39,474 bases of DNA from an uncultured Clostridia bacterium (GTDB lineage: Bacteria; Bacillota_I; Bacilli_A; RF39; UBA660), in contig CAMVLU010000004.1 in NCBI GenBank assembly GCA_947168405.1, forward strand, positions 1 through 39,474. The letters are read 5' to 3'. Below, one piece after another: positions 6,141-15,483 of this stretch. The position numbers and the translations under genes were made by a program. The notes under the pieces were generated by a model. The model saw nothing but the letters and a program-made list of their open reading frames with translations. It was not told the origin of the DNA and made no database searches. Position 1 is the stretch's first letter; each line of letters starts with the position of its first letter.

Positions 6141-6212
6141 AAATATCACAAATAAATAATAAAATATTTATTTGTTTTATTTTGTCGTTTTATAAAATTA
6201 AAAAAAAATATT

Positions 6213-6237
6213 AAAAGGTGAACATTTTTCACCTTTT
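6213..6237. terminator. Perfect 10-bp hairpin, terminator-like
   Basis: AAAAGGTGAA-CATTT-TTCACCTTTT in the intergenic region. Confidence 0.5.
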
Positions 6238-6371
6238 GACCTTTCTATTTCCTTGAAAAATAAGAAAATTAAAAAAAATAAATATTTTTTCAAAATTGCA
6301 AAAAAAATTAATATATTATAAGTGAAGAATAAAATATGAGAAATTTGTTTTTGAAAGGAGGAATAAAATAT

Positions 6372-7424
6372 ATGTCAAAAACAGCTGTAAAAAGAAAAAT
6401 CAAACTAAAACCTGGAGAAAAAGTTCCTTTATGCTTTGATGAATGTTTTAAAATAATGTTTGCAAATCCTAATAGATTAGAACCACTTACTTTATTACTT
6501 TCTAAAATATTAAATGTTGAATATGATGAACTAGAAGGTAAAATAGAACTTTATCCCTTAAGCATTCCTAATGAAACAATAGGAAAAAAGAAAATGGAAA
6601 GAGATGTTGTTGTAAAAATTAAAGAAAATATGGAAGGTAAAATTATTTTAGAAGTTAACTTTAGGGATTCTTTCTATGAAACAATTGTAAATAGAAATTT
6701 AAATTATTTATCAGAAGTAGCTAGTAAAGGTTTAAAAGAAGGAGATGACTATGATAAAATAATTCCAACATTACTTGTAAATTTTAATACTTTCTATGTA
6801 GATAATATTCATAAAAAAATGTTTGATTATTATTATTGGAAAAATGATGAAGGATACATATTAACAGAAAAACAAAAAATATTAAATATTAATATTGCAG
6901 AATGTTATAATAATTGTTATAATAAGACATATAAGACACCTATTGATGATAATGAAAGAGATTTATATTATTTATCAGCAGCAATGTATACAGATAAAAT
7001 CAAAGAATTTAAAGAATGCATAGAAAAAGTTATTACTAAAAGAAAAGTAAAAATTATAATGGAGGAGGTCTCAAATCGTATGAATGAAGAAGATGAATTA
7101 AAAATAAGATATGTAGACTTTTTAGAAGAAACCAAAAAGATTAATCGATCAATCTTAGCAGATGAAAGAAAAAAAGCAAGAATTGAGGGACATAAACAAG
7201 GACTTGAAGAAGGAAGAAAAATCGGAATTGAACAAGGAATTGAACAAGGTATTGAACAAGGTATTGAGCAAGGAATTGAACAAGGTATTGAAAAAGGCAA
7301 AACAGATGATGTTTTAAATATGCTAAATAATAATTTAGATATTAATTTAATATCTTTATATACCAAATTACCTACAGATACAATTAATAAAATTATTAAA
7401 GATAATAAAAAAACCAAGAAATAA
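6372..7424 (+). CDS. Rpn-like / PDDEXK_2 family protein (putative PD-(D/E)XK nuclease, often annotated transposase)
   Basis: FDECFKIMFANPNRLEPLTLLLSKIL...RDVVVKI...KIILEVNFRDSF; ATG at 6372 with GAAAGGAGG SD; C-terminal GxEQ repeats. Confidence 0.8.
   Translation: MSKTAVKRKIKLKPGEKVPLCFDECFKIMFANPNRLEPLTLLLSKILNVEYDELEGKIELYPLSIPNETIGKKKMERDVVVKIKENMEGKIILEVNFRDSFYETIVNRNLNYLSEVASKGLKEGDDYDKIIPTLLVNFNTFYVDNIHKKMFDYYYWKNDEGYILTEKQKILNINIAECYNNCYNKTYKTPIDDNERDLYYLSAAMYTDKIKEFKECIEKVITKRKVKIIMEEVSNRMNEEDELKIRYVDFLEETKKINRSILADERKKARIEGHKQGLEEGRKIGIEQGIEQGIEQGIEQGIEQGIEKGKTDDVLNMLNNNLDINLISLYTKLPTDTINKIIKDNKKTKK
7080..7424 (+). CDS. Predicted internal in-frame translation product (RpnS-like), 114 aa
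   Basis: GGAGGAGGT at 7061-7069 followed 10 nt later by in-frame ATG; GAG GAG codons are unusual in a GAA-rich gene. Confidence 0.45.
   Translation: MNEEDELKIRYVDFLEETKKINRSILADERKKARIEGHKQGLEEGRKIGIEQGIEQGIEQGIEQGIEQGIEKGKTDDVLNMLNNNLDINLISLYTKLPTDTINKIIKDNKKTKK
7224..7295 (+). repeat. In-frame 12-bp tandem repeat, 6 units (GIEQ x5 + GIEK)
   Basis: Units GGAATTGAACAA / GGTATTGAACAA / GGTATTGAGCAA read directly. Confidence 0.95.
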
Positions 7425-7436
7425 TTTCTTGGTTTT
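7410..7436. terminator. Bidirectional terminator; 12-bp perfect stem with the 3-nt loop being the stop codon of the Rpn-like gene
   Basis: AAAACCAAGAAA-TAA-TTTCTTGGTTTT. Confidence 0.85.
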
Positions 7437-15262: not shown

Positions 15263-15483
15263 TAAAAAGCATCGACAAAAGAGGCTCATTAAGAACGGTA
15301 CCACTCTTCTTATCAATGCTTGATATCTCTTTTTGATAACGGTATTCACCGACATTTTCTACTTAATTTCAAAAATACACTCCGTGGTGTTATTCTTATA
15401 TTCTTCCTGTTAATTTTCACCAACCATTAACTCTCTAAATGTAACTAAATATAATACTTCTCCACATCAACACTTTAAATGTT
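15263..15483 (-). promoter_or_regulatory. T-box leader for asnS (AAC specifier)
   Basis: Minus-strand AGAGAGTTAATGGTTGGTGAAAA stem I motif, AAC at plus 15289..15391 span (GTT at 15389-15391), T-box GTGGTACCG at 15296-15304, terminator stem AAGCATTGATAAGAAGAG/CTCTTTTGTCGATGCTT then T-run. Confidence 0.93.

Follow-up and report, generated by a model that had tools for sequence, protein, structure and literature searches.

The rpn genes of E. coli encode RpnL together with an internally started RpnS that inhibits RpnL (Zhong et al, 2023, PMC10327210), and an rpn gene of C. difficile, when expressed, also yields an internally started RpnS (PMC10327210). According to the same work, repeats of four amino acids in helix 1 determine specificity, one extra repeat abolished cross-inhibition in E. 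coli, separate rpnS genes exist, an internal promoter gives rise to the short transcript in E. coli, and RpnP2 protects against T-even phages (PMC10327210).

Here we analyzed a 39,474-nucleotide stretch of DNA deposited under an uncultured Clostridia bacterium (contig CAMVLU010000004.1, referred to as the window), which carries an rpn-like gene; the host belongs to the Bacilli and is of gut type. We interpret this gene, with a probability of about 0.86, as an Rpn toxin–antitoxin locus (rpnL/rpnS) in which the antitoxin gene is nested in the nuclease gene. This interpretation is based on a conserved internal start, the occurrence of tail-only genes, 4-aa repeats, predicted helices and a C-terminus matching RpnA_S. 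The locus fits the Rpn systems of Zhong et al (2023) on all features that can be tested on sequence except the NCBIfam score, with weak tail homology and no internal promoter found. The features of the locus are as follows.

6191–6335, plus strand: upstream cassette, consisting of the hairpin AAAAGGTGAACATTTTTCACCTTTT (GGTGAAC...TTCACC) and an AT-rich promoter-like region; also found at a paralog, putative function.
6355–6361, plus strand: Shine–Dalgarno (SD) sequence of the full-length start, AAGGAGG, in the arrangement AGGAGG-N10-ATG, with the same spacing as before tuf.
6372–7424, plus strand: full-length rpn gene (RpnL-like), 350 aa, with a PDDEXK_2 nuclease domain at residues 23–229 followed by the C-terminal tail.
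7061–7069, plus strand: internal SD GGAGGAGGT, a nucleotide motif conserved in relatives.
7080–7424, plus strand: internal ORF in the rpn frame, predicted to encode an RpnS-like antitoxin of 114 aa; Met237 is invariant and standalone copies share the start.
7195–7297, plus strand: 12-bp tandem repeat encoding the 4-aa unit GIEQ (TRF, 8.6 copies).
7410–7436, plus strand: bidirectional terminator-like hairpin between rpn and tuf.

Like the RpnL/RpnS pairs described so far (E. coli RpnA–E and RpnP2; C. difficile), the locus combines a PDDEXK nuclease with an internal ribosome-binding site and an in-frame start just past the nuclease domain, followed by a helical tail with 4-aa repeats and a probably related C-terminal segment; separate downstream tail genes accompany some members. 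It differs from E. coli RpnA in the length of the tail (114 aa versus 48–49 aa) and in the distance between SD and ATG (10–11 nt versus about 7 nt; in rpnA, AAGGAG precedes the internal ATG). Compared with the E. coli and C. difficile systems, the repeats lie further from the internal start, about 35–40 residues after it rather than the reported 8–20, and the window protein has as many as 13 matches per genome in this genus.

The mechanically called ORF (6336–7424) has ATG 6336 as its first codon, whereas AAAGGAGG precedes ATG 6372 with a duplex energy of −15.6 kcal/mol; because of this strong SD, ATG 6372 is the likely start, giving a product of 350 aa. The identification of this product as an Rpn-like nuclease, made in the sequence-only reading, is supported. 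Its nuclease domain matches PF12784 (PDDEXK_2; E = 5.6e-9, 36.5 bits against a gathering cut-off of 27.4), as do 14 of 14 aligned relatives, and TIGR01784 (Rpn family; E = 1e-9), where the score of 38.7 bits lies under the curated cut-off of 52.1, an annotation threshold rather than a functional feature; 11 of the 14 relatives match TIGR01784 at E ≤ 1e-3. Similarity of the C-terminus to E. coli RpnA adds to this assignment. D78 and E94 are invariant in the alignment of relatives and, by their position in the motif, are probably the catalytic acids. A PDB sequence search with the full-length protein and the short form gave no match, and Foldseek comparison of both models with the PDB retrieved nothing significant, neither the RpnA_S crystal structure nor a nuclease; the short model is a poor Foldseek query because of its long repeat helix. 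Two other annotations were discarded: the old TIGR01784 name “transposase” (T_den_put_tspse) is unsupported for this gene, and NCBIfam matches to FliH are accounted for by the low-complexity GxxxG/E-rich repeat, not by a flagellar function.

The PF12784 match ends at residue 229, eight residues before the internal Met (Met237). In the AlphaFold2 model of the short form (mean pLDDT 82, pTM 0.43), a long helix spanning residues 3–83 is followed by two short helices (88–95 and 99–113), the same predicted helix order as in RpnA_S, and the full-length model retains the same tail. Helix 1 of the short protein is predicted to be extended by the GIEQ repeats, whose number differs among relatives. A profile comparison aligned the final 40 residues to E. 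coli RpnA (E = 2.9e-4), pointing to a weak but supported tail homology. The only PADLOC hit was weak and fell in the repeat region.

By analogy with the E. coli work, RpnL, initiated at ATG 6372, would be a DNA nuclease of the PD-(D/E)XK type with a helical tail. Ribosomes would also bind the internal SD (7061–7069) and initiate at ATG 7080, producing the 114-aa tail alone (RpnS), whose long helix, extended by the GIEQ repeats, would pair with the corresponding tail in RpnL, keeping the nuclease inactive until a trigger, plausibly phage infection, frees it. Translation of the short form, its inhibitory action and a role in defence are all modelled on that precedent. The short form could instead be made as a positive subunit, like Cas11d in type I-D Cascade; there are precedents for internal starts whose products act in a complementary way (cited in PMC10327210). 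We consider this improbable, although it is the best of the alternatives, as the short form of E. coli Rpn inhibits the long one (PMC10327210) and both the domain order and the tail architecture are the same here.

The toxin–antitoxin reading is further supported by relatives in which the two parts of the gene are separated. In L015, L052 and L065, a standalone tail gene with its own SD lies downstream of the nuclease gene and starts at the residue corresponding to the internal Met. In L060 (1330–2060), two standalone tail genes lie in tandem behind the nuclease gene; they begin at the internal Met, have their own SD and contain different numbers of repeats. In L085, a frameshift has cut off the nuclease, as an ORF of 221 aa, from the tail, whose SD–ATG–tail ORF is intact. 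Together, the standalone genes and the L085 split indicate that the tail beginning at the internal Met functions as a separate protein. Re-encoding of the tail as a separate downstream gene in L015, L052, L060 and L065 resembles RpnE/YpaA (standalone RpnE_S, PMC10327210), from which L060 differs by its two tandem extra copies and the window locus by lacking a standalone tail; the window contains no separate tail gene downstream of rpn, the next gene being tuf on the other strand. These natural dissections also bear on the idea that the SD-like sequence, which sits at the domain boundary, acts not as a start but as a translational pause between nuclease and tail that aids folding. A pause is hardly likely, since most relatives keep a start codon at SD spacing, Met237 is one of 18 invariant columns among the 14 aligned sequences, and the tail-only genes of relatives start at Met237.

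We return to the nested start. ATG 7080–7082 is in frame, 10 nt after GGAGGAGGT, and the stop codon ends at 7424; the resulting arrangement, AGGAGG-N11-ATG, is close to the AGGAGG-N10-ATG found at the two real starts of rpn and tuf. The SD position, ATG, product length and stop given in the sequence-only reading are thus right, except that the first ATG occupies 7059–7061 and does not begin at 7058. Its remark that most Glu codons of the gene are GAA is likewise borne out (35 GAA versus 4 GAG), with two of the four GAG codons forming the adjacent pair within the SD. Synonymous recoding of MEEVSNR, with codon frequencies taken from 32 other genes of the window, produced a duplex energy at or below the observed −13.2 in 0.52% of trials; AGGAGG arose in 0.38%.

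Searches of genomes from the genus and family yielded 59 distinct full-length homologs. Of these, 53 have a start codon at the homologous column or close to it and six lack one, and the distance from SD to start is mostly 9–12 nt in most relatives. An SD-like site of ≤ −10 kcal/mol was found in 40 homologs; among the 332 other internal ATGs in these genes, 3 reach this value. Some homologs that keep the start codon have a weak SD. With one member retained per cluster at 70%, 26 of 38 clusters reach ≤ −10. The comparison of homologs suggested in the sequence-only reading therefore came out clearly in favor of a conserved SD and ATG (53 of 59 for the start codon, 40 for an SD of ≤ −10). Across the wider order and class, 35 more rpn genes showed a tail ATG with an SD of ≤ −8 in 24 cases, as against 3 of the 54 ATGs that lie within the nuclease portion, a rough comparison given that the former count takes the best site of the region. 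The presence of this arrangement in a low-GC Gram-positive genome, as had been proposed, is supported by the conservation of SD and ATG but is not new, RpnS of C. difficile being already known (PMC10327210).

The way in which the motif is encoded distinguishes selection on the RNA from selection on the protein. It is written as GAG GAG GTC (EEV), GAA GGA GTG (EGV), GTG GAG GTG (VEV), AGG AGG TCA (RRS) or AAG GAG ATA (KEI), and the residues over it also include KGV, KGG and RKE, so that all three codon phases are used. In the closest relative (72% amino acid identity), both rare GAG codons are kept, while the following two codons differ synonymously. Persistence of the motif in all three phases despite changing amino acids argues for selection on the RNA, as a protein-level constraint would not give that; GAG GAG GTC thus appears to have been selected for the SD and not for the protein, as originally proposed. 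The same observations leave very little room for GGAGG arising merely as a consequence of protein-level conservation (of E-E-V or E-G-V) in a helix before the tail, which would account neither for EEV, EGV, KGV, VEV, RRS, KGG and RKE in three phases nor for the use of the rare codons GAG, GTG and AGG. What this explanation has in its favor is that in several EGV homologs the SD is no better than synonymous chance; in EGV and KGV genes, single-gene recoding is not significant because the amino acids alone yield a fair SD.

The backgrounds for internal SDs were drawn from the genes of the window and from the rpn genes themselves. A functionless chance SD, in favor of which stands that the evidence on the window rpn gene itself comes from sequence, is the least credible explanation: a value of ≤ −10 kcal/mol is reached at 40 of 53 starts in the homologous column, but at 0 of 161 other internal in-frame ATGs in genes of the window and at 3 of 332 within the family. 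Judged from these comparisons, the internal SD and start are not due to chance and are held by selection at the RNA level. They provide comparative evidence, independent of E. coli, that an intragenic rpn start is under RNA-level selection across an uncultured lineage of Bacilli. A scan for internal promoters gave 12 promoter-like matches versus 10.1 ± 3.6 in shuffled sequences; a TATAAT at 7055–7060 abuts the internal SD, and transcription starting from it would come too late.

Single genomes of the genus contain pairs or triplets of rpn genes whose nucleases are 92–99% identical but whose tails have different repeat numbers or end modules. Nuclease identity is 98% between L034 and L038 (tails of 116 and 84 aa) and 99% between L054 and L057 (tails of 109 and 101 aa). 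Since adding a single repeat abolished cross-inhibition in E. coli (PMC10327210), such sets may be insulated parallel systems. We tentatively suggest from the sequences, as a possibility rather than the expected outcome, that the tail is a swappable address code stopping cross-neutralization among parallel copies, with the internal start traveling with the tail module. Such within-genome paralogs with differing tails may be what is novel here, and their near-identity allows a direct test of the proposal by Zhong et al that specificity depends on repeat number. Near-identical nucleases with diverged tails were seen in L011, L034 and L038 of one genome and in L054/L057 and L041/L042, likewise of one genome, and tail end modules have apparently been exchanged between paralogs.

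In L002, the nearest paralog of the window gene within its own genome (55% identity), the frame of the start codon is broken at an A-rich run near the N-terminus (about 2430–2490); L002 is therefore a pseudogene or phase-variable, unless the assembly is in error. It retains an intact internal SD (AAGGAGGT) and ATG.

A region in front of a RhuM-Fic gene elsewhere in the genome (L139, 1505–1660) shares 87% identity over 121 nt with the cassette upstream of rpn. The SD in that region leads into ATG TAA, which may be what is left of an rpn gene. The cassette hairpin is also found 5′ of several other rpn genes in the genus. Rfam returned nothing at the rpn locus; elsewhere in the window, a T-box leader lies at 15277–15479 on the minus strand.
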